Positions 47 through 53,300 of a stretch of DNA of 64,000 nt are shown one piece after another. A program made the position numbers and the translations under genes. This DNA comes from Ianthella basta (lineage: Eukaryota > Porifera > Demospongiae > Verongiida > Ianthellidae), in contig OZ025879.1 in assembly GCA_964019415.1 (NCBI GenBank), positions 4,516,637-4,580,636 of the forward strand. The letters run 5' to 3'. Every line of letters starts with the position of its first letter. Positions within the stretch are counted from its first letter, which is position 1. Under the pieces are notes generated by a model. The model worked only from the letters and a program-made list of their open reading frames with translations, was not told the origin of the DNA and ran no database searches.

Positions 47-3000
47 CTGTACAGAGGAAATTATATAGCAATGCACATGGCATGACTATACATGTACGTA
101 TGTAGGACTACACAAGTGAATATCTTTCATTTTGTATGCATTTACATAAGCACTGCATGCAGCAAAGAGGATGTGTTGCCCACTGTGCAAACCTTCTTCT
201 CTATTCTTCCCAGGAAGGAGTGGAAGAGCACTACTTCGTGCTGACTATAACCTCGAGTGCTGACAGCTGCTACTCTGACATTGTAGGTCAGCACACACAC
301 GTGTTTAAGCACTTGTAAATACTCCACACATAATGTACAGTCATGTATTCTGATCTGCACACTGAGGGGGCCACTTAGGCAACTCTGTGCACTACACTCA
401 CATGTAGCACTACCATGCCATATATAAGCGTCAAGATGTATAACTATGAATACAAACCTCTTTCCCTGCCTTGTGCAAGGCATGGTACTGAAAGGACGTC
501 ACTTGCTTGCCCTTGTGTGTTGACAGCTGCTACTCTGACATTGTAGGTCAGGAACTCATTGGGCAGTGTCAGAGTGAAGTAAGGGCTGCTGCTGCTTCCT
601 GCATTCACTGGGTCTCCAGGTGTCATTGCTGGTTCATACTCAATCTCATAGTGGATGGCTCCATTAGGGTGGAGTGGGGGGAGCCAGTTCAGTTCAATGG
701 TACTCCCATTTGGTTCTCCAGTCATGGTCAGCATGCGTAGTGGAGAGGGGGCTGGAAGAGTGGCAATGGAAGGTTTGGTTAAACAGATGTGCAGGGAAAA
801 TGCTCATACTGCGAAATCCAGTAAGCTGTGAACACCATGCATGGTCCTTACCACTTTCCACTGTTGTCACATCCATCTCTCCTGTCCCATTACTGACAGA
901 TGTCCCATCTGTAGACCACACTCTGATCCTGTAGGTTGTTCCTTGTTCCAGACCACTCAGTGTGACACTAGTGTTGTCCCCTCCCACAATCCTCGCATAT
1001 TGTGGAGTCACCACTGGGGGAGTTCCAAGGTTCTGTCTCTGATAGCTCACATAGTATCCTGTAGCACCTGACACTTGGGACCAGGAGACGCTCACTGTTG
1101 TAGTTGAGGTAGCTCCTTGTGTGATGGAAGAAGGTGGCTGCATGGCAGATTCTACTCACAGCAGAAGTAGAAGAAAGAACTGCATAATTGTATTGCTTTT
1201 GCCATCGATTAAAATTATCACATAACGTAGATATTGATTAATATTAATTCAGTCACCAGGGTATTGCAAAGTTTACAGCCATTAAATGAATTGTGTTCAC
1301 TGCTAGAAACATAAATTGTGTTATTTGCCATTGCTAGGTGGTCTTCAAAGGCCAGTTGCTACTCTGTGTATGGAGTTAGCAATGACGCATATTTCAGGAA
1401 CTGCCCTAACTCAGCATCCCTGCCCATCCAGACACTTGTGACCAGCACAACCCATTTGCAAGCTCTTTCACCATATGTTATCAAACGGATAGCAGGCAAA
1501 TATTTGTAGATACAAGTGGCTTAGACTAGCAACTTGACCTAGTCATTTGTCTACGGAGTACATAAGTGAAGTACGAATGGAGATATTCTTTCAACATGAA
1601 GTTCAAAGAGCAATATACTGCAGCTTTTTACACAAAGGGGGAGTGGGAGCAGGACATTTTGACTCGGAGGTTTTTATTAACTGCTTGCACAGAGTGGATA
1701 AAACAGAGATTAGAGGGATAATACTTGATTTGAAGCTAATATGAGTTTTTGGGATGCCTACATGCTCAGCAGTCCTAACTCAAAAGACCTGTTTTGCCAG
1801 TATACAAACTGCAGCTTGGAGACACCATACTATACATATATCTCTTTACATTCCTAATCATTGCACTCTGTGTACCACATATCTAAATCCTTAGTGCTCT
1901 GCAAGCATATGACACAAGCTCCAGCACCATTTGTATAGCTTCAATGTTGCTTTAATGCCTGCAGAATGGCAGGGTTCAAGCTACTGAGATGGAGAGAGCA
2001 CCACTCACACCCTCTCTCTCTCCCAAATATTTTGCCAATTACCGTACAAGTGACAATAATGTGATTTTAACTTTGCAGACTGCTCCAGAAGCAATTTAGA
2101 GGCCAAAAATGCAAGATTTCCTGAGACAGAACATATGAAAACAGACTCACTAGAATGTGTGCTATTATGCACTGTACTCGCTCTTCATCATGGGTGAGAG
2201 CATACATAGGCACATATCATGGGTGAGCCTCAATAGGCTAAAGGTCTTGAATCTGGTGTGCAGCACAGACACTGTTGGAAACTGCTCAATATGACAACTG
2301 CTGATAATATTGATAATGAGCAATTAATAGCCATCACTTTGCAGATATTTAAATTTCATCCCCCTTATTCAAGATGAATACCATATTCTTAAATTAGCTA
2401 CCTAAGGTTTAGGATAAATATTAATGATTTAGGCTAGATACTCAGACTATATACTCATTATTGCCAAATACCAGCGATTTAAGCTAAATACTGGCAATTT
2501 GCAACCGTTGCAGTGCGCATATGCAGAACATAAAGGGCAGCACCGGACTAACCAAGACGTCAAGACATTCAGAGATGGTGAGAGCTCTTAGGAACCGACG
2601 ACAACTGTCAGAACTCCAAGACCATTACTCAACCTTCACTTACAGGAGTCAGCTCCAGGGGAAAAGCAGGAGCCAGCTCAAGGGGAGTCCGCTCAAAGGA
2701 CCAACCAGGAGTCAGTTCAAGAGAACAACCAAGAATCAGCTCAAAGGGGCCATCATGAGTCAGTTCTGTTTAATTTGGAGGGCAATACAAGACGTTTAAC
2801 CTTGCAGAAGGTGATTTGTGGTGGAAGAGGAGTCAGCTGCATGCCACTCTATAGCTAACTGCAACTGCAGCGTCTATATGTAGCTATCACTCAGTAGCCA
2901 GGTTTGGAAGTGCTTTGCATCAGTAGTACTGGCATCGGAAGCACCTGCGTTGGACGCCAGAGCAGAGGAGGACACTGAAGGCACCCTTCTCTGCTAGTAT

Positions 3001-6000
3001 TAATAATGAACAATGAACAACACCCTCCCCTTCATGCCATTTTCAAACCACAGGACAAATTTTGAATCAAATTTGGGGAGCAAACATATCTGGGAGTGAT
3101 TCTCAGTGAGTATGGGAGAATGGAGTGTGAGTTGAAGAAGAGAACTGGTTCAGATTTAAGCGCAGCGGGGGCAGTCAGAAGCCAAGTATTTGAAAGCGGA
3201 GAATCGAGTACAAAGACACTGATGTGCAAGGCAATTATATATAGATCCAATTTTGACATAATATGGTGCAGAATCTTGGGTGGTAAAGAAGAGGGAGACA
3301 CAAATAATTAAGGCGGCAATGATGAGAGTGCTAAGGAAGATAGCAGGAGTGAGGAGAATAGATCACGTGAGAAATGACGACATTAGAGCACAGTTAAGGC
3401 ACAGGAAGGAATTGTGGAGCAGGCACACAGAAAGAGAGAAGTTTGGAAGAAACAGGTAGAATGATAGGTTGGATCTACTACAGAGATGACAATGAGTGGA
3501 GTTGTACCAGGGGAAAGACCAAGAGGGAGGCCAAGAAAACGATGGAGCGATGCTTACCGATTGATGCCAAGATGTAGACAGTATTATGATCAGTAGTGAT
3601 AATGAGCAATCACATAGCAGGTCGACAGATGGAATAATTGCAAAAATGTACGCCGTTTCGACCGCGAAGGTCTTTGTCAAATACATAACTTTCCAGTATT
3701 AATAATCTTTGGAATACTCTATAGTATCTAACTATGATAATACTAAAGCTCAATTATTCTTGTATGAATGACTCCCATGTGTTTCAAGGATTGTGTTCTA
3801 GTGATGATGATGATGATGATGAATTTGCATGGTCTTAATTAACTATGACTGGATTGGCTGACTGTTTCTTGGTATGCTGAAAATACGACAGCAGTGTGGG
3901 CTTTGTCGTTGATAGAATGCGGTTGGTGTAGTTGTTTCTAGATTGAAATGGCTTAGCTCAAGAGTCTGCATAGTCAATTTACGTATCCGCTGATCACCAG
4001 AAGGATGCTCATCACTGACAGCAACCTAGAGGACTTTTAAACAGCACAGCCAGCGTTGGAGATAGACAGACATGCTTGAACAGCTTGTATTTCAATTATG
4101 GAGTACAGAATGTAGCCAAAAAGTGTTGGAAATGTCAATTGCGTGTCACCAATAAGCATTTATATCATAAATTATGTAACACCTCTAGTGCAACACTCTT
4201 TGGCCTCTTTTCTATCTTCCAAACATGCTCAGGGAAGGAGTGATTGACTGTAAACGTAATATATGTGTTTCAAGCACCTTAATCAAAAACCGTACCAAAT
4301 ATTGTGCAGGATTATTGATTTCAACACGTGAGCCAGTGCTGTTACTTTAATCGGGAGCATTCGGTAGACTTACTCTGCCAAACTCCATGTGAACAGTGCT
4401 TTAATTCATTTTGTGTGAAGGCATTCAGTGGGGAATGTGCTACCACCTTAAGTTGCTCCCATGACTGCCACGATACACTCTTCCAATTTTGGTGAAGATT
4501 GGTTAAAATTGAAGGAGGGGTTCTGAACAATGAAATACAAATTTCCCCTATTTCTCAGATATGATGGCGACTGTAAAAGAAGCAAGAACTCAGATGGAGC
4601 AACTTTCACCCAAATTTCCGCTTGACCATGTTACGCTTGCTATACTTCACTGTATTCTTACCACGTTTGGTGACTACCGTATTTGTCCGAATAGAGGCCC
4701 AAGCCTCTATTTCTTTCCTGGAAGCTTTGACCCGCCTCTATTCGAGCCCGACTTCTATAAAAATTGATATATATTTTTTCTAAATTTTGATATTTTGTAG
4801 CCATTTCTGCAAGAGTTCCAATGTTCCTACTCAGGTAGCCAAGAATGCTCCAAGGGAAAGAATGTCTCCTGGCAAAACACAGTGCATGCCAACTAAAGGG
4901 AAGACAGTAGTGAGTGTGACAACTTTCATAAAACTGAGCATCGATCATTGTACAACAGCTCGCAAACATAATATAAGCTGACCCAACTTGATCATTGCAT
5001 TTGATAGAGTGCTATGAGTTAGCTACATGTACAGTATATAAGTACATATGATACACAGCACTCACCTCCATTAATGAGATAGACTCCAATGGATGCTGAC
5101 TGGCTTGGAAGGCTGGGAAGGGAACCAGACGCTCGGCATTCCAGGTCTTGGTTCATATATGCAGTTGAGTCAGTGTACATGTGGATATCAGTCCGTGTCT
5201 GGTTTTGAGTGTCTACACCTACACCACCATTGTTTTGACATTTTGAACCACAGGTCAAGCATGGACCCCCACAGTTCTCTAGCATTCCAGCAATGTTATA
5301 CCATGTTACCAACTGAGTTAGATCGCTACCGCCATTGCAAACAATGTGGTCATTGCCAACTGCAGGTTCATTCCTGTTTCGTGGGCTGTTAGTGTGTGTG
5401 AGTGTGGTGTTGGTGACAAAGCTGCTCCTGGGGAAGAACACTCTTAATCCACCATCTTCATTTGACAGGGACAGACCATCTGTGTGGATAGTGAACGCTT
5501 AAGTGCAAATGAGAAGTGACACCATGTGAACATACTGATTATGTTCATGTACAATACATACCGACAGGATTGTATAATATACTACACATGGGAGTAAAAA
5601 ATAACAGTCACTGAAGTCAGATATAATTTCCAATGAATTTTACTGATGTGTCATGGTTAACAATAAAGGGAGAAACCACAAGTATATAGTAACAGTAAGC
5701 CTTTGATACAACACAGCTGTAAGCAGTAATCATACACATACACACAACACTGTGCTGACTCCATGTAATTCATATGCATACAATGGCAAGGAGGAGGATA
5801 TTGATTGGATAGGTCAAAGAATAATGTATGGCAAGGCTTTTTCCAAGATATTACATGCTCCATGCTACAGAATAGAAGATTTATAGGATGTTGGACATGA
5901 TGTCATTCCACTTGCACTTGCTCTGTCATTCAAAAGGAAGCTGGTACCATTTTCCAGTCCTCAATCCACCATACTAACAACACCCACTGTAGTGCCTTGA

Positions 6001-9000
6001 CTTTACCCTTTTCCAGACTCTCTAAATTGTAACTAGCCTGTCCCGCACACACTGAAGAACACCATTCATTAACACTTTTCCCAAACACAATTCAACGCTC
6101 GCCTCACCAACAGTAATACAAAAGTACTGCTGGAGCTTGCCTTCTTGAGCCTCTTTCTGTCAAAGAGCTAGAGGTGCTCACAAGTCAGCTGATTCAGTTG
6201 AATGTAAATGAGAAACATGCTGCGCCGCAGCAATAAGAAGATACCTAGAAGCTACCAGAGATGTTGGCAATGACTGTTTTGTTCTAAATGTTCTGACGAT
6301 AACTACAGATAAGCAACTGGTGTCCAAATACAATCTGGCATACTATACACTGGTGTATTAAGTGTCCATAATAAATCTCGAATACAGTAGCAATCTTAAC
6401 CAAACTGTGCACAGGCATACACAGTACACCAGGCGAGTGTGCTATGATCCAAAATGCCTGCTTTGCACTCTGTGGGCAGCAGCATAATGGCTCCATGCAC
6501 TCACGGTATTTAATTGTTGCATAGCGCATACCTCCCAGTTTTCCAGACAGTTTACTGTGTATTGGAGGAAAGCCAAAGAAGTATAGAACACTGTCTTGCA
6601 TTGCCTATTCTGCTGTCACAATTGTACTTCGCATTTCAAATGCCTTTATTAACCTTGTTTTCTGACATATTCATTGGGCTATGCTATGATATGACAATAT
6701 ACAGTGTTAATCAAGGCGTTTGAAACTTGAACTACTAAAATGGCAATAGAATATGCTATACAGTACATTGTTCAGCACATTTTTGGCTGTCCTTCAATAC
6801 CCAGCAAACTGGCAGGAAACCCGGAGTCATTAGCTATTGGGTGATTAATTGCTGTGAGTGACAGCGATTATCTTTCTGCCAGAAGAGGACAAAGTAAGCG
6901 AAGTGGACTACAGTGCAATTACCTTATGTCACTTATACTCCTTGTCAAGTAAATTGTCACTTCTTGAAGTATCCAAAGATGGAAAGACTAAATTTCATGA
7001 GAATTTTTCACACTATTTCCTTCTTCCTGTTTTCCATTCCAAACTAAGTAGTGCCATATACTCTGCAAAACAGCCGTGAACAGGGCTATGACGCGAGAGT
7101 ACATGCTATTGCATCTTCTTTCCAGCTATTCATCTCCCTATTTTACAAAACCACCAAGCTACACACACCCATGTACATGAGTGAAGTGGTGATGAGGAAA
7201 GGCTGTCATGTAGCTAGCTATCAGGCAGCAGTGTAGGGAACAACAATAGCCAGCTTTGAAGTGCGTTTTAGCCTGTTGGTCTGCCATGGTATCATCAGAG
7301 TATGATGCATACAGTGAGTGCTGAACCCAAAGACTATATATGAGTCCTGCAACTGGTACAGAACAACACATAATGACTTGGAAGAGTTGCTAGATTGTAA
7401 AGCCCATGCAGCAAGGTAGATGTTGCCAGATGTAGGGATGGTGAAAACATACCCAAAGCAGACGAATGTTATTGCATGGGCACTTCAATTCAAGGGGAAT
7501 GGGCATGGGCAATGACACAAGAGGGAGTGGGATGCAGCACCAACACAACTTGCACAAGGGTGCAGAGTGAAACTTGTAAGTGCCGATGTGCAAGGTGTGT
7601 GTTGTTGCTGCATCTCACTCCAACTTACATATATGCTTGTGTCCAATCCCCCTGATCATGACCTTTGCATCTTGTGGTGCTATTCCTTCCATCCATTAGA
7701 GTTAGCACTCTACTTGCACTTGTGCTAGTTACCCTCTGTAAATATAGTGCTGGTGGGTGTTCAATGTAGCACTAGTGCATGCACGGATACACTTCCATAT
7801 TATGCATGTACTCGTCAATTAATTCAGATTAAACATGAGCATGACTGGAATGACATGTCCAAGGTGTCTTCTTCAGTCTATTTAGGTTGGTAATGCTTGC
7901 AGTGCACCAAGGAGTTGGACTTATAGACCTCATTCCTTGTGTGGTACACTTGAAAGTTATACATACTGCATCTTCTTTGCCTTGGTTGTTACAAGCCTGG
8001 TAGCTGTCAGACTCCCTAGTGAGTATCTAAAGGTGGTACTCTGATGAGTCATTTCAGCTGTCTTGACACTTACACCACTCCAATCTATTCTCTCTTTCCA
8101 TCCTTGGTGGTGGTGCTGGTGGGTGTTCAATGTAGCACTAGTGCAGGCACTGATGCACTTCCATATTAGGCAAGCAATTGTCAATTAATTCAGATTGAAC
8201 ATGAGAGACTGACTGGAATTACCCATACAAGTCCAAGATGTCTTCTTCAGTCTTATTAAGTTTGGTAGTTCTTGCAAGAGCGTGACTTATAAACCTCAGT
8301 TCTTGTGTGGTACACTTGAAAGTTATATGTACTGCATCTTCTTTCGCCTTGCTTGTGACAAGTCTGGGTACTGTCAGACTCCCTAGTATGCATCTAAAGG
8401 TGGCACTCTGATGAGTCATTTCAGCTGTCTGGACACTTACACCACTCCAGTTTATACTCTCTTTCCATCCTACTTTGTCTCATGCTCAGCAACTATGTAG
8501 TACATCCTTGTCCTCAGTTTCTTTGTAAAGTGTGACAGAACTGTTGCTTTGTAATGGATCCCAAATGATAATAACGTGCTACCCCATACCCATTGGTGCT
8601 ACCTTTAGTAGTTCAGAGGGTATAATTATGTAATAATACCAACACACTCAAAAGCCTCCCTGCACAACTTGTAATTATGGCCTTCAGAGTGCTTTGGAAG
8701 CACTGACTGTCTAATCAAATTCACCATCTCAATTAGCATCTCCAGGTGTCACTGATTAGTCAGTGCCTGGTGTGGGAGTTTCAAAGGAGGCTCGCTCTGG
8801 ATGGAGCGAGCCCACATTGGTATACAAGTAGGGAATGGATCAGTGGCTGTTGGCGGTGACCAGTGACCTGGCTGCTAAAGGGTTGGCTAAAGATTTGGAG
8901 GTTGCCGGGGCTTGTCTGGTTCATTGCCATTTCTCCGTCCTCCCTTCTTTCCTTACCATGTGTACGTAGTTCCGAACGTTGTCTTCGATTTGTGTCACCA

Positions 9001-10264
9001 TGGTACATAGACCATCATAATTATCACCTCCTACTGTATATTACTTGACTGCCTGCCCTATCTAACAAGGAAGTGCTACAGTAACTGCAATCTGATGATA
9101 ACTGTAGATGAGAAAATTGGTGTTTGATTACAATTACTAGACATACCACAGTGGCATAATATGTAGGTGCCTATTTTTAACATTCTCAACACAGCCCAGG
9201 CTTTGACTGTGAACTCTCAGTACGAGATGACCTTGTAAGTTACAGTATCCTGTAATACAACACTTAGTGACTTTGAAATTATTTGAAAGTTGTAGCTAGC
9301 TAAGCAGCTTTATCAACGTGACAATAATTTGCAACTGACAAGGTGTAACTCACTGTCACATCTTGCTGTGTGGTATTCTGCACTAGGCAGATGTAGGTCA
9401 AACTGCCTGAGTGAAATCTGGGGTAAGTATCAGCAACTCACTTTCAACTGTCAATGAATGGCTTGCAGATCCCACCACCTGTGCACTATCGTTATTTGCA
9501 ACAGTACAGCTGTAGGTCCCACTGTCAGCGTCATGTCTGCGCACATTCACCACCAAGATGTTGCCCTGTTGGATCCTGGCTGCCCACTCAGGATCAACTC
9601 CTGCTGCATCACAATAGTCCCCAGGACAGGTCCACTGATAGCTTAGCACAGTGGTGGATGGCACTCCTACAACTCTGCACACCAATATCAAGGTGCTGCC
9701 TTGCTCCACAGTAGGAGGGTTGGGGTAGGCATCAATGACAGCTACTAGGCAAGTACACAAGGAGACAAGATGGGCGAGTTTAGCTAGCTACATATGACAA
9801 AGGGAAGCCCTAACACTTCCACACAGGCTACCCTCCTCTACACCAGAGACATTCATGTAAAGGGTCTGCACCTCTTGGTGTGCCTTCACTTGAACCTGTA
9901 GCGTTTACACCTGCACAGAGAGAGTCGGGACAGAGCATAGGTAGCTAACTAGTTAGTTAGCTAGATGGCTAGTCAGCTAGCTAGTAGAGAACTCTAAGCC
10001 ACATTGCGAATAACTAACACAAGTATTCGCCAACAAGATCCTGATATTTGCTAAGCACTGTTACTCTTCTTTCTCATGACACAGACACAATACCGACACT
10101 TAGCTAATACGGCACCATGAATTAAGCCGCTGGATATCAAAACATGACGCCTACGATTACATCACCACTGTTTGCATGGCAGACCGCTCACCCGATATTA
10201 GCTGCAGCAATAGCAGCAGCGCTATCGACATCCGGCAGGCACAGGAGAGAAGAAAGGGTGCCAT
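1..10264 (-). CDS. Unit 1 receptor gene, 5' part (SP, Ig, Ig-like, FN3 exons); runs off the left edge
   Basis: Paralog of the unit 2 ectodomain. Exons in transcript order: 10264-10192 (signal peptide), 9910-9872 (microexon), 9741-9442 (Ig), 5479-5066 (Cys-rich Ig-like), 1151-852 (FN3-A), 751-458 (FN3-B), 46-1 (start of FN3-C, incomplete). Every exon is open, the phases match, and no lesion was found. Whether the tail is a phosphatase or the T block cannot be seen, because the window ends inside the ectodomain. Confidence 0.82.
200..311 (-). pseudogene. Truncated FN3-B duplicate (unit 1)
   Basis: Reads LTYNVRVAAVSTRG plus a decayed tail and the GTTTGC donor-like site. It is the 3' part of an FN3-B copy without an acceptor. 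Confidence 0.6.
458..751 (-). CDS. Unit 1 exon 6: FN3 domain B
   Basis: Intact FN3 exon (IELNWLPPLHPNGAIHYEIE, FLTYNVRVAAVNTQG) with acceptor CTTCCAG and donor GTTTGT, phase 1-1. Confidence 0.86.
852..1151 (-). CDS. Unit 1 exon 5: FN3 domain A
   Basis: Intact FN3 exon (VSVSWSQVSGATGYYVSYQR, LSGLEQGTTYRIRVWS) with acceptor GAGTAG and donor GTAAGG, phase 1-1. Confidence 0.86.
2390..2500. repeat. Minisatellite, GATTTAGGCTAAATACYRG type (unit 1, short allele)
   Basis: About five degenerate copies of a 22-24-bp unit. The same locus is expanded in unit 2 (28560-28830). Confidence 0.6.
2640..2775. repeat. Short tandem repeat, AGGAGTCAGCTCAAGGGG type
   Basis: Five or six diverged copies of an about 24-bp unit. 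The plus-strand frame through it (SQLKG repeats) is a by-product. Seen only in unit 1. Confidence 0.5.
3055..3580 (+). mobile_element. LINE 3' fragment (unit 1), decayed
   Basis: Plus-strand reading EQTYLGVILSEYGRMECELK, then MCKAIIYRSNFDIIW, then RVLRKIAGVRRIDHVRN, then GRPRKRW. This is the usual C-terminal end of Jockey/CR1/RTE-type LINE proteins downstream of the RT. Several frameshifts. The orthologous fragment lies in unit 2. Confidence 0.7.
4676..4775. mobile_element. Short MITE with GAATAGAGGC / GCCTCTATTC (unit 1)
   Basis: About 100 bp with an inverted GAATAGAGGC motif, shared with unit 2 (31255-31350) and missing in unit 3 near 54640. Confidence 0.5.
5066..5479 (-). CDS. Unit 1 exon 4: Cys-rich Ig-like module
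   Basis: Open 414-bp phase 1-1 exon, with the CGGPCLTCGSKC cluster and the SASIGVYLING ending. One extra codon relative to unit 2. Confidence 0.72.
6505..6600 (-). pseudogene. Candidate extra unit exon (unit 1)
   Basis: Minus-strand AMQDSVLYFFGFPPIHSKLS...RYATIKY ending at a phase 1 GTGAGT donor. It is conserved in unit 3 (56485-56620, open but donor lost) and unit 2 (donor kept). Units 1 and 2 have a stop just upstream. It may be an ancestral exon now unused. Confidence 0.3.
7745..8465. repeat. Local tandem duplication (about 360 bp) in unit 1
   Basis: 7745-8105 and 8105-8465 are direct repeats, while unit 2 has a single copy (36180-36550). On the minus strand each carries GVSVKTAEMTHxSATF...LGSLTV, which may be a decayed Ig exon (residues like ITFKCTTQ near the end). 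Confidence 0.6.
8724..9020. other. Unit 1-specific insertion of unknown type
   Basis: Absent from the equivalent point of unit 2 (about 36790). It contains a perfect 9-bp-stem hairpin GGCTCGCTC-TGGATG-GAGCGAGCC at 8788-8811 and a GC-richer body. Possibly a SINE or MITE; no A or B box was convincing. Confidence 0.4.
9322..9413 (-). pseudogene. Relic of a second Ig exon, 3' half (unit 1)
   Basis: Minus-strand reading YICLVQNTTQQDVTVSYTLS matches the end of the Ig exon in units 2 and 3, not the unit 1 exon beside it. No acceptor or N-terminal half remains. A similar fragment lies at about 37055-37135 in unit 2. Confidence 0.6.
9442..9741 (-). CDS. Unit 1 exon 3: Ig domain
   Basis: Same Ig fold as unit 2 (LILVCRVVG, YQWTCP, DSGTYSCTV), but the G strand after the last Cys differs (ANNDSAQVVGSASHSLTVES versus a QQxVTxSYTLSVA type). 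A relic of that alternative ending lies just downstream at 9322-9413. Confidence 0.85.
9872..9910 (-). CDS. Unit 1 exon 2: 39-bp microexon
   Basis: GVNATGSSEGTPR linker, phase 1-1, between a GTGCAG acceptor and a GTGCAG donor. An N-glycosylation sequon (NAT) is specific to this copy. Confidence 0.7.
10192..10264 (-). CDS. Unit 1 exon 1: signal peptide
   Basis: Starts MAPFLLSCACRMSIALLLLL with donor GTGAGC in phase 1. It differs from the unit 2 copy by an Ala-to-Ser change and a few silent changes. Confidence 0.82.
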
Positions 10265-12950
10265 AGCTATGTCTTGTACTACTCGCCTCCCCTCGTGTGG
10301 GGCGTGGCTGTTATTACAGCAGGTGAATTAATAGGAAACACACTGGCACGTGTTGGGAGTTTGCGTAACTCGCAACTATGTGGATGCAACTACGTATAGG
10401 GCTTTTAATTAAGGTAAGTACACATACATGACCTGATGTATAATATTATATTCAGTTCATACTGCAGTATGTATATACTATATGTATACGTATAAGTATA
10501 TACAGCCAGTGGGTGCAGCCTCCCTATTCCCAGGAATATCCTGGCTGCTCACATCTGCACCTTTTACACCAACAAATTGTACGCTGACCTCCTCCTGCCC
10601 ACAACTCTGCCCCATACAGCAGCACTGACTCAACCAACATCTCAGGTAACCTCACAAATGATTCTTCTCTATTCTCACCAAATGTGGCCCTGCACTTTAT
10701 CAGCCAGTCACTTAGGGGCCTAGCTATGCCTGCTTGGGCTCTATCCTAGTTCATCATGCATGTACGGCCCTTGTATACTTACAAAGAATTTGTCATGGGA
10801 TTATGCGGCTATTGAGCGAATAGATGGCTAGCCATTACTTTATCATGCAAAACCATAGCTATACAGCAAGACCGGAGCCCATACCGCACTAACAGGTGAA
10901 CTCAACTGAACAGCTTTGCACAGTCAGTCTTGTGCTGTACTACACTCCAGCTGCATCCTCTTTTTCAACACAAATTAGGATTGTGCTATTATGCTATGTG
11001 GGGCATGTGCTCAGCACAGCTTGTCAGTTTCATTGCTAGAGTTTAAACTATTATTTTGCTACCTTGGTCACAGGCATGTGAAACTACATGTGTTAATTGT
11101 TGTCAAATTAATTGTGCTACAGTACATATGTATATGTGGAGATAGTTGTTTAACTGACAAAAGTCAATTATATAAATAGCATCTCAACAATGGAAAACCA
11201 TATAATATATAGACTCATTGACCATGTTACGGCATTTCAGGCACAACAATGTAAAATGTACCATGCTAGAGTATGTCAGTTGCATTGTTGTACAATAGCA
11301 GGTATGCACTGTGCGCATTGCAATACAAGCTATTTACACAAGTCATTTAAATTTGAGCTGTCATAGCTAGAATGAGTGAATTTCTTCACTTAAATAACTA
11401 TTATCTCTAAGTGGGATAACATAACTAGGAATATGGCTACATACGAGGAATTAAATCTCACACAGCACCTCCTACAGCTGTTAATGAAAACACATTTGTT
11501 CTCCTTTACTCGTACTTGTGGAGTACTTGTTGTTCCATATGCTCAATGGGTTATCTTGGAGATGTGGGTCTTTATACAGAGCTGCATGCTAACGGTATGA
11601 AATTATAATTCAAAGGATAAGAAATATGTATAATAACTTGAGTCTAGTGTAGTGTAATCAATTTCTCTGGACATACAAAACCGTATAACATGAGAACATT
11701 ATGCACAAATTTAATTATGTTATTGTGTGGTCTGCCTGACAAATCAAAATTTGTATATACACACCCAGTGCATGCTATGAACCAGGGAAGTGCTTTTGTA
11801 CATAGATGTCCAGATTACAGCAAGCTCTGATGATGGTAAGATCTTATATCTCAGAATATTGCAGCACAATAATATAGCTGGCTATAAAATTATCCATTCC
11901 ACTGCTTAACTAACCATTCCAATGTGCCTATGACTAGAAAATTTGTTGTCTTGACAGATTTAGATAGATTTGGACAGTATTTGGGAGTGCACTTCGTGCA
12001 GAAGCAGTGAATTGCCAGAATTGTAGAATGTGATCAGTAAATACTGTGGAGAAGCTATCCATGTTGACTAATGCCTATGCCCCAAAGCTAGTCAGTTGGT
12101 GCTATCTATTTGAGATTACTGAAGATCTGTTGTAATACACTTTGCTTCCCCTCAAGTTACAACTGCATTATGTGGCATGAGCTACATATACCTTGGTTTA
12201 GAGTTTGAATGTGTACCACAACTGGGATCCTATAGCTAAAGGTACATGCACTGCAAGGTGAATGCTGGTGGATTTTCTGATGTTGAAGGGCTAGGAGATT
12301 GCTAGCTGCAGAAACATCATTTTGCACACAAATTCTCTTTGATGTCCTTTTTGACAAGAAGCCATCAATTCCTCACCATTAAAACTGAATGGCCATGCAG
12401 CATTAGAAGTTTACGTGTTGAACGTGTGTGTGTCCAATTGGATGGGATATATATAAGTCAGTTATATCCCATTTACTCATGTGATATCTGGTCATTGCCC
12501 GTGACCTTGGCTTCACCTCGGTCTTGGGCGATAACCGGATATCACACTCGTACTGAGATATAACTATAACTTATTCCAGGCTACCCAGCACACAGTAGTT
12601 TATAATTAATATAAGAGGAGGATAAGAGATACAACATACTAATGTTAACATAGTTGGACATACGTACAATGACACAATGACACTAGCTACAGGAACCCCT
12701 GTATGTATGTCTTCCAATATACCAGTACGATACATCTTTAGGCAGTTACATCACAGCAAAGTGACAATTATTCCACTCCATTACAATGGAGTGAAACACA
12801 AACACACAATTTTGAAGTATCCTAAATCCCATACATCTTGTGTCAGCGTAAAAAGAATTACTAAAGGTTATGAGAAAGCAATGTACATTATCAACTTCAT
12901 CCAATGTTGTTTACACTAGTACAAACACACTGTCTTGGTATTCAGTTTAC
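10265..12950. other. T block 1 non-coding or unassigned sequence
   Basis: Between the unit 1 start codon and the T1 transmembrane exon. Apart from the broken helical exon near 11.5 kb and the region shared with T block 3 (11845-12200), I see no supportable exon. A promoter for unit 1 presumably lies near 10265-10500, where an AT-rich TATATAC tract occurs. Confidence 0.4.
11490..11592 (-). pseudogene. T block 1: broken copy of the helical exon
   Basis: Reads MQLCIKTHISKITH and then a stop. The acceptor has changed and a small indel breaks the frame. Confidence 0.45.
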
Positions 12951-13362: not shown

Positions 13363-13421
13363 CTGTAAAGATCCTCTTGGTCATTTTAAAACTTCATAAT
13401 TTATTATTATTATAATTATTG

Positions 13422-16400
13422 CGACCTAAATTGACATTGAAAAAATGGCGGACGCGGAGCTGTCGCGAGATGAAGAGGAAGATGAAGATGAAGAGGAAGC
13501 TGAAGCGCAACCGTCTAGAGGAGGAAGCCAAAGTGCCATCTGTGCAGTTTGTGGCAGGGTCCTTACGTTGACGAAGGCTGGATTAGTCCGAACCCATGGC
13601 CCTCTTGGCAACCGCTGCCCCGGTTCGCGCGCGCCACCTGATGCGAGCGGCGCCCCCCTTACCGCTCTCACTGAAGATGTACGAGCACCTCAGCTGCCAG
13701 CACATGGGGATGATGACTACCCTCAGCACACACTGCCCAAGCCCCGGGTTAAGCCTATACGGAGGATCCCGCGCGCATCCCGAGAACTTGCCGCCAAGAA
13801 ATTCACCTCCATAATCGAGGCTGTAGTAGCCAACCCCGCCAACGTACCTGCTTGGGATCGTCTTTTTCGTTTCAGCTCTCGCTGCCTACGAGCCCCAAGC
13901 CGGGGTGGCCGTCGGCAGAACCTAGTCAGGGTCTTCAACGAACAAATCAGGGTAGAATCGGATCCTTCAGCCCTTCCATCACCCAGTAATCCGCAGAGCC
14001 GCCGGAAGCACCAGAAAGTGCGAGACTCAATGGAATCACTCGCCGGACTTGTTGCCTCCAAACTGGAGGAAGGCGACTTCAAGGGTGCAGTCCGCCTAGC
14101 CTGCTCAGAAGACTCCATTGCTAGTCAGAATGACAGTACCCTAGAGGCTCTTAGACGGAAGCACCCCGCACCACACCCCGACTCCCAAATGCCACCTCCT
14201 CCTGAGGAATTCAGCCGCTGCCCCACTGTGTCAGAGGAGGAAGTTGCCCAAGCGATTCGTTCTTTCCCGAATGGCTCTGCAGGGGGGCCAGATGGCTTAA
14301 TGCCACAGCACCTCAAGGACATGACCGGAGCCTCTGCAGAGAGCGGGGGTCCAGTGTTACTGTCAGCACTCACTGCCCTGGTCAACATCATTCTCCAAGG
14401 CAAAGTTCCAAGGACAGTCCGGCCACTTTTCTTCGGCGCCAACCTTACAGCCCTCACAAAGAAGGATGGAGGGGTGAGACCTATCGCAGTTGGTTGCACC
14501 CTCCGCCGGCTTGCAGCAAAGTTAGCAGGGAGGTGCGTCATGGATGCCATGGGAGAGCTCTTGGCCCCGCGCCAGTTGGGGTATGGCACCAAACTAGGCT
14601 GCGAGGCTGCAGTTCATGCAACCCGCCTCTACTTGAGTAACCTTCAGCCTGGCCAAGTCATCCTCAAGCTGGACTTTCAGAATGCCTTTAACTGCATCCG
14701 CCGTGACAAGATGATACAGGCTGTGAGCATTCTGGCTCCAGAGCTTACCCCTTTTGTTCATGCCTCTTACAGTGAACCTTCCTCACTTTTCTGGGGAGAG
14801 ACCTCCCTCATGTCATCGGAAGGCGTACAGCAAGGTGACCCCCTTGGTCCCTTGCTCTTCTGCCTCACCATCCACAAGCTCACCTCCCAGCTGGGGTCTG
14901 AATTTTGCCTTTTCTACCTTGACGATGGGACCCTAGGTGGAGATGCTGAACAGGCCCTTCAGGACCTGCGTTTGGTGGAGCAAGGTGCAGGAGAGCTAGG
15001 TCTCTCCTTGAACCATGCGAAGTCTGAGGTCATCAGTAAAGACCCTGCTGCCACAGGTACCTTACTTGCTGCAGCTCCCAACCTCCAGGTGACTGACCCA
15101 GACTCTGCCACCCTCCTGGGTTCCCACCTTGGCGGCATTGACAGCATCAATGAGTCCATCCGTGACAAGGTGGAATGCCTGAGAATCTTGGGTAACAGAC
15201 TCGAGCACCTTCACACTCAAGACTCCCTCCTCCTCCTCCGCCACTCCCTAGCAATCCTGAGACTGTCATACATCCTCCGAACCTCTCCTTGTTTCCTTTC
15301 TGCAGAGCTCCGAGTTTATGATGATCTGCTGAAGTCCATCACTAGTAGCATCACCAACAACTCTCTCCAGAGCTCAGTCACAGCGTGGCCCCAGGCCTCC
15401 CTCCCAGTCAAGAATGGTGGACTGGGCATCAGGAGTGCAGTCCAGCTTGCGCCCTCTGCCTTTCTGGCATCTGCTGCTGGCTCCTCCACCCTAGTTGCCC
15501 AGATTATCCCCAGGCACTTGCGGAAGTTCCCAATCGTTGCCAGGGAGGAGGCATTCAGTTGCTGGTCACAAGGACACCACAACCCTCCCCCACCCGACTC
15601 AGTATCCCACCGCCAGAGAGAATGGGACTCCCCAAGAGTTAAAGCCTCAGCCCAAGCCCTACTTGAGGATGCCCCAGATGCAAGATCCCGTGCCCGCCTC
15701 CTAGCTGCCAGCAGAAAGGAGTCTGGTGCCTGGCTGAATGCCCTCCCGGTATCAACCCTGGGGCTACGCTTGGATGACGAGACAACGCGTGTGGCTGTGG
15801 GCCTCAGACTCGGCACACCTCTCTGCCGTCCACATGAATGCAGTAATTGTGGAACCATGGTGGATGACCTGGCCACCCACGGCCTCAGCTGCCGTTTCAG
15901 TGAAGGCCGACATCCCCGCCATGCAGCTGTCAACTGCATTATTCAGAAGGCTTTGACTTCAGCCAGGGTACCTTCCAGGTTGGAACCATCGGGACTGTAC
16001 AGGTCTGATGGGAAGCGCCCTGATGGTTGCACCATCCTGCCATGGAAGGCAGGGAAGGTATTAGTATGGGATGCCACATGTCCGGACACTTACGCACCCT
16101 CCCACATCTCCGCTGCAGCCAAAGGAGCAGGTGCAGTGGCTGCACAAGCCGAGCACTTGAAGATTTCAAAGTATGCTCACCTTGAATCGAGCCACCTTTT
16201 CGTGCCAATTGCAGTGGAGACATCAGGTGTGCTGGGCCAAGCAGCACTAGACTTTGTGAGCGACCTAGGACAACGTCTCCATCAGGTGACTGGAGAAGCT
16301 AGAAGCAAGGAATACCTCCTGCAGAAGCTGTCAATAGCTATCCAACGGGGGAATGCGGCAGCAGTGCTCGGGACTGCTGAGAAAGACAGGGATCAGGATC

Positions 16401-16603
16401 CCTTCTGGGATTAACTGATTGCATGTGCATGCTCAATGACTTGTCATTCTTGTAATTTAACTTGAGTATATTGTTAAGTAATCTTTTTCTGCATGCTATT
16501 TTGATATATTTATTTTTATCTTGCAATTGTATCATTGTATGTAGCTAGCTACAGTGGTAGCTGTTTGGTGACATTACAATAAAAAAAAACCTGCAAAAAA
16601 AAA
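13422..16603 (+). mobile_element. R2-superclade-like non-LTR retrotransposon, apparently complete
   Basis: A 3182-bp insertion flanked by an 8-bp target duplication AATTATTG (13414-13421 and 16604-16611). It has a 23-bp 5' UTR, a single intact ORF, an AATAAA signal at about 16578-16583 and a 3' A tract ending at the duplication. The paralogous locus at 47409-47416 keeps one AATTATTG and no insert, which fixes both boundaries. It inserted after the T-block duplication and stands opposite to the receptor genes. The GC-rich ORF contrasts with the AT-rich host. Confidence 0.92.
13445..16414 (+). CDS. Retrotransposon ORF: zinc finger, reverse transcriptase, restriction-like endonuclease (989 aa)
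   Basis: Polyprotein for target-primed reverse transcription: the endonuclease nicks DNA and the RT copies the element RNA there. N-terminus: an acidic stretch, then a CCHC zinc finger (C33, C36, H51, C58). RT core at about residues 310-560: ILKLDFQNAFNCI with catalytic D410, GVQQGDPLGPLLF, and FYLDDGT with D493/D494 (YLDD instead of the commoner YADD). C-terminus: zinc knuckle C799-x2-C802-x9-H812-x3-C816, RHPRH, KRPDG (D860) and VLVWDATCPD (D876), the layout of the R2-type PD-(D/E)XK nuclease. No frameshift or stop, so it may be active. The clade (R2, NeSL, Hero or other) needs a tree. Confidence 0.9.
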   Translation: MADAELSRDEEEDEDEEEAEAQPSRGGSQSAICAVCGRVLTLTKAGLVRTHGPLGNRCPGSRAPPDASGAPLTALTEDVRAPQLPAHGDDDYPQHTLPKPRVKPIRRIPRASRELAAKKFTSIIEAVVANPANVPAWDRLFRFSSRCLRAPSRGGRRQNLVRVFNEQIRVESDPSALPSPSNPQSRRKHQKVRDSMESLAGLVASKLEEGDFKGAVRLACSEDSIASQNDSTLEALRRKHPAPHPDSQMPPPPEEFSRCPTVSEEEVAQAIRSFPNGSAGGPDGLMPQHLKDMTGASAESGGPVLLSALTALVNIILQGKVPRTVRPLFFGANLTALTKKDGGVRPIAVGCTLRRLAAKLAGRCVMDAMGELLAPRQLGYGTKLGCEAAVHATRLYLSNLQPGQVILKLDFQNAFNCIRRDKMIQAVSILAPELTPFVHASYSEPSSLFWGETSLMSSEGVQQGDPLGPLLFCLTIHKLTSQLGSEFCLFYLDDGTLGGDAEQALQDLRLVEQGAGELGLSLNHAKSEVISKDPAATGTLLAAAPNLQVTDPDSATLLGSHLGGIDSINESIRDKVECLRILGNRLEHLHTQDSLLLLRHSLAILRLSYILRTSPCFLSAELRVYDDLLKSITSSITNNSLQSSVTAWPQASLPVKNGGLGIRSAVQLAPSAFLASAAGSSTLVAQIIPRHLRKFPIVAREEAFSCWSQGHHNPPPPDSVSHRQREWDSPRVKASAQALLEDAPDARSRARLLAASRKESGAWLNALPVSTLGLRLDDETTRVAVGLRLGTPLCRPHECSNCGTMVDDLATHGLSCRFSEGRHPRHAAVNCIIQKALTSARVPSRLEPSGLYRSDGKRPDGCTILPWKAGKVLVWDATCPDTYAPSHISAAAKGAGAVAAQAEHLKISKYAHLESSHLFVPIAVETSGVLGQAALDFVSDLGQRLHQVTGEARSKEYLLQKLSIAIQRGNAAAVLGTAEKDRDQDPFWD

Positions 16604-16611
16604 AATTATTG

Positions 16612-17947: not shown

Positions 17948-38023
<20,076 letters not shown>

Positions 38024-39374
38024 AACTATGTCTTGTATGACTCGCCTCCCCTCCTGTGGGCGTGGCTGTTATTACAGTAGGTGAATTAATAGGAAACACA
38101 TTGGCACGTGTTGAGAGTTCGCGCATTTTGCAGCTGTAGGGCTTTTATGTATTATAAGTACACATACACTGTACATGACACGATGTATATTATATACAAT
38201 TGCACTCCTATTGTGTTCTATTTTAGTGGTCTAGGACCTTCCACCTTCTCACTCATTATTCTCTCCTCTCCCTCCCTTTCATCTGCTACACATCAATTGT
38301 CATCATAGCTAAATGGCCAACATCTTTCATCTCCCACTTTTACATTTCCTCTCTTCTCTTCTGAAACCATGGCTCTTGAACTATTGTGTGTGCTGTATTG
38401 TCATTATATAGGTCTGCATATATGTGGTCTTCACAAGTCTCATTTCGCCACAACATTGGTGCAGTGCTTGTGGATGTGTGGTTAGTTGGTGTAACAAGAT
38501 TATATCCATGGCTGTTAATTATCACTGTGAATGTAGTCATAGCTAGAAGGAAACAGCACTGACACACATTCTGGAATTTGTACGATCTACACATGTGTGT
38601 GCAGGAGTGTGTCCAGCTAGTACTTGTATGTCACCATGTACACATTCACGAACATCGCACTCCATTGCACTCTCTTCTGCAGTGTCATGTCACTTGCATA
38701 GCATATAATTATGAGCACAGAAGAATTGGGTAGCTGAATATAAAGTGAAGCCTCCCCACTGTGGCGCTAGGTCTTGTGATGGTGCTGTCTCTGTATATAA
38801 GGAGTGATTTAGATAAGCCACTGGCAAACTGTTGGCTGTTTTCCAACTCCACTGCTATCGGTGAAGAACAATAGTAGGCCCTCTCCACCTCCTCACATGC
38901 AACAGTTGTTCTCATGTCTTGCAATTCTCTTACTCCATGTGTTTGGTATATGTCTGATGAAGGACTGCATGCTACCGGAATCTATAGACTTCAGTGATCA
39001 CTTTATGGCACTTGGCACACACAATGTGTTACTATAATAATTAGGCATATGCCATGTTACAGTAACTGCTACTATTGGTGCATGACATACACATATGCAT
39101 TGAGTGTATCAAATTGACAGTCTGCATACACTGATCTGAGATTCTTGAGCAAGCAACAACTGATAATAATTAATCAATCCAATGCAGGACGTTTCGACCC
39201 GAAAGTCTTAGTTGACAAAGACTCATTCAGTTACTCATTCTATTCCATTGCAATAGAGTGAAACACAACAAACACATAAGTTTCGGAGTATCCTAAATCT
39301 CATACATCTTGTATCTGAGTAAAAAAGAATTACTGAAAGCTATGAGAAAACAGTGAACATTATCATCTTCATCT
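38024..39374. other. Upstream region of the RPTP gene
   Basis: Contains the presumed RPTP promoter (no clear TATA box or initiator identified), a decayed duplicate of the ERERMERL exon at 38237-38310, and at 38709-38924 a minus-strand frame with a decayed counterpart near 62.45-62.59 kb. Confidence 0.4.
39131..39232. mobile_element. Single arm of the 22.9-kb fold-back element
   Basis: Matches the left arm: GAGATTCTTGAGCAAG, then GCAGGACGTTTCGACCCGAA, ending at GTTGACAAAGACT. Confidence 0.65.
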
Positions 39375-47370: not shown

Positions 47371-47869
47371 ATGTAAAGCCCTTCTTTGTCAGTTTAACAC
47401 TTTATTATAATTATTGCCTAATCTTAGTTCTTATCACTGTATCGTGCAGTTATCTAATCTGCCATGGTGTGAGACAGTGTGCAACAATGTTTGGAGCCAG
47501 GCACTGTCATCACAGGTTTGACCAGGAGAGTCGGTAAACTGGAAATACCGTGAAACTACTAGCCTAGCTGTCAATTGTAACCATTGACCACCTATGAGCT
47601 AGCCAGTTGCCTACTACAGGTGCATGCTATTGATCCTTTGAAACATATAATAATTCATCATAGCTGTTTGGGCCTAGCCTGCATACTAAGTGATCAATGA
47701 TACATTAATACTTGGCACATTGGGATATAATTCGCTATAACACAAACTTAATGCATGTTTTGGTCTTAAATACACAAGTCACAGAAATTAATGTGATAGT
47801 GGTTCATGGGACAAAGCCATGTAACCTGCACTATTCACTCCAATGCATGGTTATGGTGATTGGTCTCAC

Positions 47870-48177: not shown

Positions 48178-48421
48178 CTACAAAGTGAGAGGTTAGCAAT
48201 GCACATATGACTATACACATATAGGACTAGCCATTTCATTCATTCTATATGCATGCAAGTATTTATGCACTTGCTAATACTCCACACATACAGTTCCACC
48301 GATCATGTAATCTCGTCACCACATTGAGTGACACTCAGGCAACTCTGTGCACCCCACACACATGCACCACCACCATGCTATGTACATATAAGCGTCAAGA
48401 TGTATAATTATGAATACGAAC

Positions 48422-48715
48422 CTCTTTCTCTGCCTTGTCCAAGGCATGGCATTGAAAGGACGTCACTTGCTTGCCCCTGAGTGTTGACAGCTGTTACTCT
48501 GACATAGTAGGTCAGGAACTCATTGGGCAGTGTCAGAGTGAAGTAAGGGCTGCTGCTGCTTCCTGCATTCACTGGGTCTCCAGGTGTCACTGCTGATTCA
48601 TACTCAATCTCATAGTGGATGGCTCCATTAGGGTGGAGTGGGGGGAGCCAGTTCAGTTCAATGGTACTTCCATTTGGTTCTCCAATCACAGTCAGCATGC
48701 GTAGTGGGGAGGGGG
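48422..48715 (-). pseudogene. Unit 3 FN3-B exon (open)
   Basis: 294-bp exon with acceptor CCCCAG and donor GTTCGT. Highly similar to units 1 and 2. Confidence 0.78.
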
Positions 48716-48816
48716 CTGGGGGGAGTGGCAATGGAAGGTTTAGCTAAACAGATGCGCAAGGGAACTGCTCATACTGCTGAATCCTGTAATCTGTGAACAC
48801 CATGCATGGTCCTTAC

Positions 48817-49116
48817 CAGTTTCCATTGTTTTCATATCCATCTCCCTTGCCTCACTACTGACTGATGTTCCATCTGTAGACCACACTCTGATCCTGTAGG
48901 TTGTTCCTGGTTCCAGACCACTCAGTGTGACACTAGTGTTGTTCCCTCCCACAATCCTCTCATACTGTGGAGTCACCACTAGGGGAGTTCCAAGGTCCTG
49001 TCTCTGATAGCTCACATAGTATCCTGTAGCATTTGACACTTGGGACCAGGAGACACTCACTGATGTAGTTGAGGTAGATTCTTGTGTGATGGAAGAAGGT
49101 GGCTGCATGGTGCTTT
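48817..49116 (-). pseudogene. Unit 3 FN3-A exon (open)
   Basis: Same 300-bp exon as in units 1 and 2, with few substitutions and intact splice sites. Confidence 0.78.
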
Positions 49117-49578
49117 CTACTCATAGTAGAAGTACAAGAAAAGATGTTGCTTTTGGCATCCATTGACATTATGTAGATATAGATTAATATTAATTCAGTC
49201 ACTGAAAGAATGAAAGAATTGTGTTCACATCTTGAAACATCAATTGTGCTATTTGCCATTGCTATGTAGGTCATTGCTGAATTCTTGTTGTGCTATATAG
49301 GCGAACATATTTCATTGCTGGTGTGCATATCTAGGTTTTGGTGTGTATTGGTGTACATATTTAATTAAATAAGCAGTTATATCTGATTGCCATGGGGAGT
49401 ACCATTCACTCACATGCACAATATATCTTGGCAGCACTGTCATGCTCTTGTTCATGTGTAGCCATAAAAAGGGTGCAAAAGATTCATCCTGGTAGAAGCA
49501 CTTTGCAATCCACTTACTGCTGTTAAACCGTACTGCAGCTGACAAAACTTGTGTGTGAAAGGTGACTGATTCTTCCAC

Positions 49579-49890
49579 CAGTGAGAGGGCTGATTAAGTA
49601 TTTCAGGTAGGTACCGAAAGGAACATAGAGACTACCATTATATACAGCACAAGTGATCACTGTTGCATTGTGCTGCCCCGCTGTCAGACTCCTCTGTGCC
49701 AGTGCACCTCCCTCCACCTCCAATTCTGCCACATCCTGCTGCAACACATGATTTACCATCCAAGTCTTGTTGGCACCTCCGATCACGATGCAGGAAAAAG
49801 ACAAGATATCTCCTTTGTAGACTAACATGTTTCCAGAGAGGTAGCATATGGCGATTTCTGCCTGGTTCACATTGCTCCAGGCTATCTCTC
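49579..49890 (-). pseudogene. Extra Ig-like exon present only in unit 3
   Basis: Open 312-bp phase 1-1 exon between the Ig-like and FN3-A exons. Ig hallmarks: LSFSCIVIGG, TWMVN (core Trp), ATVITCAVYN. Acceptor TTTAG; the proposed donor GTGGAA is weak, so the 3' end is uncertain. No counterpart seen in units 1 or 2. Confidence 0.6.
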
Positions 49891-50439
49891 CTAAAGATTA
49901 TAATGTTGCAATAGATTCACTCACATTTCCGTAGTACTTTCTTTTTTTTGGCAAGAAACCAATTAACATTCACCCATGCTTCTCTTAAATGGAAAATATA
50001 ATCAGTTATGACACCCCCACTTGGGATGTGGCTAATATGTAACACTAAGCACTTCAGACTTGGGTGGAAGTGCCTTCATGCCAGAATGCACATCTCTCCT
50101 GGGGGTGCCATAACTTATATATACATGTGCCTACAACAAAAGTGAGATACTGTAGTTATATATAACATACATATATATCTGTCAGTAGTGCAGTATTATA
50201 GATTATTATGAACTCATTGTAGTAACTTATAGTGTTCATTCAGATCAATGACTTATGTTGTAGCCATCAGGATTCATAAAATCATACACATACAAAAGAG
50301 TACACCTACGATAAAACTGACTTTGATACACAGACCAAAGAAATATAATTTCTAAAGTAGGGGTAGAACCATAGTAGCTGTTGTAGATGACAGCTAGGAA
50401 ATGATGTGTGAATGTATTGCATGAAATAAGTCATTGACC

Positions 50440-50900
50440 AGTGTTAATCATTGAATGCAGCAAAAATGAGATACCATGCGCACAATATGCATGGATAATG
50501 CATGGAATATGCATGATGGCTATGCACGTTTCGTGCATAGAATGTGTATGAATGACACATGGACATGCATGCTTCCATAGAATGTGTATGGACCATGCAT
50601 GGAATATGTATGAACACACATGAATTGTGCTTGGAATTGGCTTGAGTTTCCATGCCTAGAAAACCATGCCGGACCTGTGTCATACATGGAACCCACATAA
50701 AAGTATCAGAAACGCGTCCCAAATTTCTGCATGTTGCGTGCATGTTACAGGTTTCATGCATGGAAATTGCATGGTTCTACTCAATATTGAAGACAAGGGC
50801 ATGCATAATCATACAGGCCAATTCCATGCATGAAAGGTATGCCTAAAATTGTCTGTCAGATGCATGTAACATGCATGTAACAAGTGCATCATTTTCAGTA
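50440..50900. repeat. GCATGGA/CATGCATG-rich low-complexity tract
   Basis: Dozens of degenerate 8-12-bp repeats built on CATGCATG, CATGGA and CATGAA, with varying spacing, in unit 3 between the extra Ig exon and the Ig-like exon. Peptides rich in Met, His and Cys read from it are not genes. Confidence 0.75.
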
Positions 50901-51546
50901 GGAATATTACTGTTTGGTTCAGAATCTAGTAAATGTCATGATGGTCCTACTGATATCATCAAATCTGGTTTCACTAAAGACCTTGAGCAGGTCCTCAAAC
51001 GCCAGTTGCTACTCTGTGTATGGAGTTAGCAATGAATCATATTTCAGGAACCACCCCAACTCAGCATCTCCGCCCATCCAGAGGCATATGACCAGCACAA
51101 CCCAATTGCAAGCTCTTCCGTCATATGTTATCAACTGGATACCAGGCAGATACGAGTGACTTAGACAAGCAACATGACCTAGTCATTTGTCCAGGGAAGA
51201 CATAAACAAAGTAGGAATGGGATATTGCTTCAACATGAAGTTCAAAGAACAATAATATTATATTGCAGCTTTTACACAAAGTGGGAGTGGGAGCAGGACA
51301 TTTTGACTCAGAGATCTTTGTCGACTGCCTAAGTTGGTAATATATTTAAAGGGATTAAAAGGTTAATACTTGATTTCAAGCTAATCCGAGTATATTGGAA
51401 GTGCCTACATGCTCAGCAGTTCTAACTTAAAAAAACAATTCTGCCAGCATACAAAGTGCATTTGGAGACACCATACTATACATATATCTCTTTACATTCC
51501 AATCATTGCACTCTGTGTACTACATATGTCTAAATCTGTAGTGCTC

Positions 51547-51942
51547 CAGGGTTCGGGTCCAATTTTGCAATATTTCCTGTTAAACTTACAATTCTATTTA
51601 GGTTGCAAATTTTTGGGGGAAAGATGGTTTTAATATAAGGACAGTGTGAAAACTAGGGGGTCTGGGAGCATGCTCCCCAGGGAAATTTAGGATTTTTATC
51701 CTCTGAGTTTGATTCTGACATCATTTGAGAGGCAAAATGACATTTCTGAAACCATTTTTATGCACTCATCTTGTCAGCACTTGTGTGAATGATATGTTTT
51801 AAATTCCTGCACTCATAGATTCAGTGTTAGCTATACTGGAAGCCAGGTGAGAAATCTATGAAAATTTTCCATTGCAACTCTGCAAATTGGGGGAAAGCTG
51901 GAATGTTTGGGGGAGAAGTTTCCCCCAGTAGATTGAAACCTG
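51547..51942. mobile_element. hAT-like element in unit 3 with 5-bp target duplication
   Basis: Ends CAGGGTTC and (inverted) CAGGTTTC, flanked by TGCTC on both sides. Unit 1 has a single TGCTC at the equivalent place. It shares the CTGGGAGCATGCTCCCCAGG palindrome with 33373-34037. 396 bp, no ORF. Confidence 0.72.
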
Positions 51943-52749: not shown

Positions 52750-53300
52750 TACAAGCTGAATACCCACCCTTTCGGTGGCATTGACACTGTGATCGGGCCA
52801 TGTTCTTAACGGGGTGCCGTTCGCCTTTGTCAACTGATTACTGTTAGCAGTTGACAAAGGCTCTCGAGCTGAAACGTCCTGCGACCCTGCTTTTATCAAA
52901 CTGCAGTATTGCTCATCTAATTATCTTACTATAATTCACGGGAACTAGGATTTTTATGTATGTTTGTTCAGCCATAAAATTGGTGCCTTGTAGGAAATCG
53001 GCTCGAGATGCTCCGTGCCAGTGGAGGGACTCGGGGGCCATGTTCTTAGCGGGGTGCCATTCGCCTGGCTGCCTTGCGGCCGAAAAGTGAGACTTCCTTC
53101 GTCAATTCTCCGCGGGCCGACACGCCATTTTTAACATTATCGACCGGCCCTTCCACACCTGGTCATTGGCGTACTTGATACGAGCTATGCCAGTAAGGGA
53201 GTGGGGGGACATGAGCTTAGAGGGGTGCAGTTCACCTAGCTGCCCTGCAGCTGAAGAGAGCGCTTCCTTTTTTCCGCGGGCCGAGACGCCATTTTTAGAT
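52750..53300. repeat. Block of three direct repeats, unit 3
   Basis: GGCCATGTTCTTARCGGGGTGC-type units start near 52797, 53037 and 53208, each followed by GCCKTTCGCCTGGCTGCC-type sequence and (for the last two) CGCGGGCCGA-ACGCCATTTTTA. GC-richer than the flanks. A GTTGACAAAGGCTCTCGAGC hairpin motif lies at 52839 and a degraded Helitron-like end at 52750-52790. Probably a composite repeat element. Confidence 0.55.

Follow-up and report, generated by a model that had tools for sequence, protein, structure and literature searches.

A dispersed RLE-type LINE family of the sponge Ianthella basta with a candidate promoter motif over its start codon

The insert and its empty site

The window, i.e. 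the whole stretch of 64,000 nucleotides of Ianthella basta analysed here, lies on contig C12 and contains a LINE-like insert that runs from 13422 to 16603 between two copies of AATTATTG (Table 1). It also harbours what is presumably a repeated host gene cluster, with three large tandem blocks (164-10365, 26299-38123 and 48256-57798, with pieces 74-91% identical) and a block labeled T that is present three times (at 12.7, 46.6 and 63 kb).

Table 1. Coordinates in the window of the insert, its parts and the empty site.
Feature	Position	Strand	Basis
Target-site duplication, left copy (AATTATTG)	13414..13421	+	
5' junction segment of the window copy, 23 nt	13422..13444	+	comparison of copies
TISU/YY1-like motif over the start codon, AAAAATGGCGGA, 9/12	13441..13452	+	consensus comparison (PMC2518114)
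Single intact ORF, 989 aa (P0001)	13445..16414	+	translation
N-terminal CCHC finger-like motif, C33-x2-C36-x14-H51-x6-C58	13541..13618	+	by eye
Reverse transcriptase, Pfam RVT_1, catalytic FYLDDG	14456..15049	+	E 1.7e-19
Linker CCHC knuckle, CX2CX9HX3C	15839..15892	+	motif
Putative restriction-like endonuclease core: RH, KRPD..D, KX2KY	15908..16174	+	motifs as defined in PMC5678591
3' UTR, AATAAA at 16578-16583	16415..16594	+	sequence
A11 run, last two A possibly part of the duplication	16595..16605	+	sequence
Target-site duplication, right copy (AATTATTG)	16604..16611	+	
Paralogous empty site, one AATTATTG	47409..47416	+	

A sequence-only reading of the window had claimed a full reading frame, an A tail and 8-bp duplications for this element, and all three are found: the frame is free of stops, the tail is a run of eleven A, and AATTATTG stands at both ends. 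The duplication may measure 6-9 bp, 8 being a fair reading. A length of 9 bp is possible because a C follows both copies of AATTATTG, while the lower limit is 6 bp because the two leading As are indistinguishable from the tail.

The exact empty site, also claimed in that reading, was recovered in block T2, which holds a single AATTATTG. When the window flanks are joined with one duplication copy and compared with T2, the alignment is gapless at the junction and shows a 13-base gap just left of it, which supports boundaries defined to the base. Since the empty paralogue holds a single site and the left flanks of the two are 76.6% identical, the simple reading is that the insertion would postdate the segmental duplication, as had been proposed, unless an exact excision is supposed. 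Block T3 was considered as a second empty site and rejected, AATTATTG being absent from the T3 sequence examined.

The encoded protein

Downstream of the reverse transcriptase the protein displays, in this order, LNALP, the CCHC knuckle, GRHPRH, GKRPDG, LVWDAT and KISKY. The restriction-like endonuclease (RLE) of LINEs has been defined by RH, PD, D and KX2KY, with NALP and a CX2-3CX7-8HX4C knuckle upstream (PMC5678591). All motifs of this published set are present except for the exact knuckle spacing, which is one residue off on either side of the His. The architecture is that of a single ORF with a central reverse transcriptase, followed by RH, K/RPD, D and KX2KY motifs that are largely conserved across subfamilies. 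All eight rows of alignment A2 agree in the PD, in the D further on, and in the first Lys and the Tyr of KX2KY; L059 is devoid of the His of RH, and L060 of the Arg of KRPD.

R2 proteins rank first among solved chains when searched with a four-piece profile (A3), at 4.9e-9, 7e-9, 3e-5 and 5.7e-5, followed by 8c8j (1.8e-4) and by the best chain named L1 ORF2 (3.5e-4), with others weaker. Another R2Bm entry, 8ibw, reaches only 0.0015 with this profile, weaker than the L1 chains. With the single sequence, the same search yields 4.3e-5 for R2, 0.19 for 8c8j and 0.38 for the named L1. The record title of 8c8j gives RNA-directed DNA polymerase only; we take this chain to be L1.

It should be noted that the RLE assignment is motif-based, because the profile of the RLE region found no meaningful match among solved structures and Pfam names no endonuclease in the protein. 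Pfam likewise shows no Myb match at E 1, and also misses the N-terminal finger. AlphaFold models computed from the single sequence have a mean pLDDT of 37.6 for the whole protein and 37.9 for the C-terminus, both too low to be of use. Four between-subfamily comparisons give dN/dS values of 0.09-0.15, at a dS of 1.5-2.3 that is near saturation; the protein, endonuclease included, has therefore been kept by purifying selection. The relatives of the reverse transcriptase and the C-terminal motifs together point to an RLE-type LINE that would belong to the R2 superclade in the broad sense, as had been suggested for it, and that we do not assign to R2 itself.

The family and its copies

The genome searched comprises 209 Mb. 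A DNA search with the whole element produced at least 44 matches (40 of 335 candidates scored), among them diverged relatives and separate parts of a single copy; the 3' part gave at least 41 (40 of 68 candidates scored) and the 5' part 11 (all 11 candidates scored). Thirty-nine loci were retrieved, and 38 of them entered the duplication test described below, L046, a 5' fragment, being left out. The test counts L047, a 72% relative, as well as both members of the pairs L032/L033 and L040/L044. These two pairs, located on contig C2, are old inserts with common flanks, carried by later host duplications.

Seven copies are full length, and the 989 codons are intact in five of them; the intact copies differ pairwise by 2-12 per 2970 bases. 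Given these intact frames and small differences, the family has therefore been recently active. Some other copies are truncated at the 5' end. Relatives in viral contigs were also considered, and none was confirmed.

Two further elements were met among the retrieved loci. L017 (282-2096) holds a second, broken RLE-like family, with the reverse transcriptase motif WFADDATAGG and C-terminal CCHC-like and FFDVR motifs, and L023 (3801-6146, minus strand) a long open LINE reverse transcriptase of another kind (FADDTTLYV).

The 5' end and the start codon

Concerning the start, the seven full-length copies were compared with three copies of a diverged subfamily (L049, L050 and L061). The 5' ends are nearly common: upstream of the ATG, any two of these ten copies stay identical without interruption for 0-13 nt. 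L010 and L011 have 13 nt in common there, and ATTGAAAAA, which precedes the window ATG, is common to both, the remaining segment being shared loosely (gapped) or not at all. When a gap or mismatch is admitted the upstream likeness extends somewhat further, within the trio L009-L011 and between L049 and L061. The distance from duplication to ATG is 23 nt in the window, 17 in L011 and 4 in L012. The ATG at 13445 is the likely start, because the next in-frame Met lies beyond the N-terminal finger. A trans-spliced leader was considered for the near-uniform 5' ends and discarded, the ten copies having no common leader.

All ten copies read ATGGCGGAC from the start codon. These ten sites are not independent, as they represent two subfamilies, and two kept codons prove little, because 87 of 197 shared residues keep identical codons between the subfamilies (C-terminal part).

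The TISU consensus is SAASATGGCGGC. Of its 12 positions, the full-length copies (L009-L015) match 9, 9, 9, 9, 10, 10 and 10, and L049, L050 and L061 match 11, 11 and 10, respectively. Among 6926 ATGs, taken from 20 loci and including the copies' own, 2.4% reach 9 matches, 0.46% reach 10 and 0.014% reach 11. The window family has AAA where TISU has AAG, and the exact TISU core, AAGATGGC (PMC2518114), is present in only two of the ten copies, L049 and L050. TISU is described as a YY1 site which in addition ensures that initiation is accurate when the leader is very short (PMC2518114), and in human L1 the start is reported to be set by YY1, through a site at the L1 5' end (PMC11602158).

R2 is described as having no internal promoter and as using that of its rDNA target (PMC13188248). 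Because the flanks of the present copies differ, the 5' end of their RNA would be set by the element itself, and a TISU/YY1-like promoter over the start codon is a candidate to which we give somewhat less than an even chance. About as tentative is the full proposal suggested by the motif comparison, namely that one TISU/YY1-like motif over the first codons could serve as promoter, start-site selector and translation start at once, freeing a dispersed RLE LINE from host promoters.

The main competing explanation, which we find possible if rather doubtful, is that the element is transcribed solely by chance from neighbouring host promoters, and that its ATG-proximal 5' end reflects processing or a reverse-transcription stop. 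There is a precedent in BLAG, whose authors assume host promoters (PMC7650587), and the 13 nt common to L010 and L011, with loosely more in the window copy, could be flank that was carried over. However, a carried-over host leader should give longer shared leaders, whereas contiguous identity in the ten copies stops within 13 nt, and does so in two subfamilies with a dS of about 2. Processing by a ribozyme is not supported either, since the four matches obtained at 13380-13800 down to E 5 comprise no R2-like 5' ribozyme, HDV-like or otherwise, and no other ribozyme family.

If the start-codon motif does act as promoter, a nearly leaderless mRNA would carry everything that is needed, and every full-length copy would be born with its promoter. 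In that case, the YY1 start site of L1 would have its counterpart among RLE elements, and the transcription of R2 relatives that lack a specific site would be explained. The papers retrieved on TISU together with retrotransposons do not deal with LINE promoters, judging by their titles and abstract openings.

Target sites

The family is dispersed and very probably non-site-specific, with 7-11-bp duplications at those A/T-rich sites that are clear. A repeat of at least 8 bp is found across the ends of 16 of the 38 copies, against 6.6% of 1406 control pairs made of ends from different copies; the other 22 show no 8-bp repeat. Among the 16, L012 and L013 are located within tandem repeats. The window copy enters the test with a value of 6, since the query includes its duplications. 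In 14 copies a duplication was picked by hand after inspection of the data; these measure 7-11 bp (median 9) and begin with A in 12 cases. Such lengths are ordinary for RLE LINEs, since R8 shows 9 bp and R4 13 bp (PMC6895275). The A+T content of the 14 copies is 74% in the duplications, 69% when 20 bp on each side are included and 55% in distant flanks. The A at the nick owes something, in part, to the A tails and to the choice of repeats by hand, and A/T-rich sites could be those where neutral inserts survive. The CTTAA that follows the duplication in the window and in L011 was dismissed as a motif, as it is missing at that spot in the other 12 of the 14.

The sequence-only reading had placed the insertion in an ordinary AT-rich intron. 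An A/T-rich, dispersed target is borne out, but the intron is not, as coding-like conservation at the locus is limited to fragments, which lie on both strands. The same reading had asked whether the other copies all lie in rDNA or in one repeat family, and they do not: Rfam at its cut-off reports no family in the window or in the 39 family loci (19 loci and 20 further ones), and hence neither rRNA, as would be seen for insertion into the 28S site of R2, nor U2 genes in the flanks. Association with U2, a trait of Utopia, was also checked from the other side: 46 of 5001 U2 candidates were scored, and the 19 matches listed contain no copy of the family. A U2 or rRNA target was thus rejected as finding no support in either comparison.

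These data also bear on the possibility that the family prefers a repeat, be it a 35-bp satellite or the U2 or rRNA genes, and that its single-copy insertions are spill-over. In its favour, one 35-bp satellite houses both L012 and L030, on contigs C9 and C15, and the two agree in their duplication, ATCTTACCT, and in its phase; partial specificity is known in Utopia (PMC4640811). Yet a tandem-repeat scan that covered these two loci places at least two of the 38 copies in the satellite, only L012 and L030 having been found there, and the Rfam and U2 results given above offer no other repeat. We regard a preference for a repeat as very unlikely, and retain dispersal over A/T-rich DNA.

3' ends and insertion outcomes

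The A11 run of the window copy starts 12 bases past AATAAA. Young copies end at many points in the 3' UTR, and among the 17 with at least 97% identity nine have seven or more consecutive A near the 3' end and eight do not. Beyond the heterogeneity of young copies, 3' extensions are common within sub-groups and differ between them (L024, L029, L035 and L038 versus L039 and L043); the 3' ends have therefore been replaced more than once. The other 13 copies for which a duplication was chosen carry 0-15 bases at the 5' junction beyond their match to the window element. L043 (970-1240) shows an inverted 5' part; on inspection by eye, this copy is bounded by 13-bp repeats, AGTTCTTAGTTTA, and has an A10 run. 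By analogy, it may resemble the twin priming of L1.

Proposed life cycle

Taken as a whole, the element is very probably a young, non-site-specific LINE, likely still competent, with a single protein that unites reverse transcriptase and restriction-like endonuclease, and the family may be active at present. Pol II transcription would proceed from the element itself, and the mRNA would begin between a few and about 20 nt ahead of the ORF. The encoded protein would nick the bottom strand of A/T-rich DNA, in most cases immediately 5' of an A, and reverse transcription would be primed on the A tail or within the A/T-rich 3' UTR. The duplication would then arise from a top-strand cut placed 7-11 bp beyond the nick, and the cDNA end would be joined to the DNA upstream, in many cases with a few bases added. 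We infer the order of these reactions by analogy with R2 and L1. That there was no LINE insertion at all, and that the window shows a rearrangement next to a tandem gene cluster or an error of assembly there, is suggested by its several tandem blocks, but has a practically negligible probability given that the same element is found full length at seven places amid different flanks, several of these copies having their own duplications and tails.

Comparison with known systems

The element resembles R2 (R2Bm and R2Tg) in reverse transcriptase similarity, NALP, a knuckle of slightly different spacing and the RH/KRPD/KX2KY motifs. It differs from R2 in that the sites examined show no rRNA and that neither a Myb nor a ribozyme match was obtained, and also by a single N-terminal CCHC finger and by duplications of 7-11 bp. 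LINE-1, which has an APE nuclease, two ORFs and a long 5' UTR, is similar in its A tails, 5' truncation and duplications, in the one 5' inversion and in the YY1-like site at the 5' end; unlike LINE-1, the window element has a putative RLE, a single ORF and a near-leaderless start. The A tails, truncation and inversion seen in the family are outcomes of the L1 kind, here combined with a putative RLE enzyme.

Utopia/NeSL elements are likewise RLE LINEs with one or more N-terminal fingers (PMC4640811), whereas the window family, unlike Utopia, has no copy among the 19 U2 matches listed. The HERO clade, compared by its published description, is also of RLE type and includes many non-specific families (PMC4640811). 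BLAG of Blattella germanica is an R2-like element that is similar in having a single ORF, a length of 3.2-3.7 kb and few, dispersed copies; its 5' UTRs are given as -37 to 436 bp under a host-promoter model (PMC7650587), while in the window family the ATG lies 4-23 nt from clear duplications. Finally, R2-homologues with variable flanks have been reported from sponges (PMC13188248). Likened by description, they are R2-related RLE LINEs outside the 28S site; the ones classed there as R2-homologous have a predicted Myb domain (PMC13188248), and in the window element Pfam detects none.

A dispersed target, for which the sequence-only reading had implied novelty, is thus not new in kind, because HERO, BLAG and the sponge R2-homologues have been published (PMC4640811, PMC7650587, PMC13188248). 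What the family offers is young intact copies, exact junctions, one empty site and a short candidate promoter sequence, and its unexpected part is the 5' end, with a near-leaderless start in a TISU/YY1-like motif.
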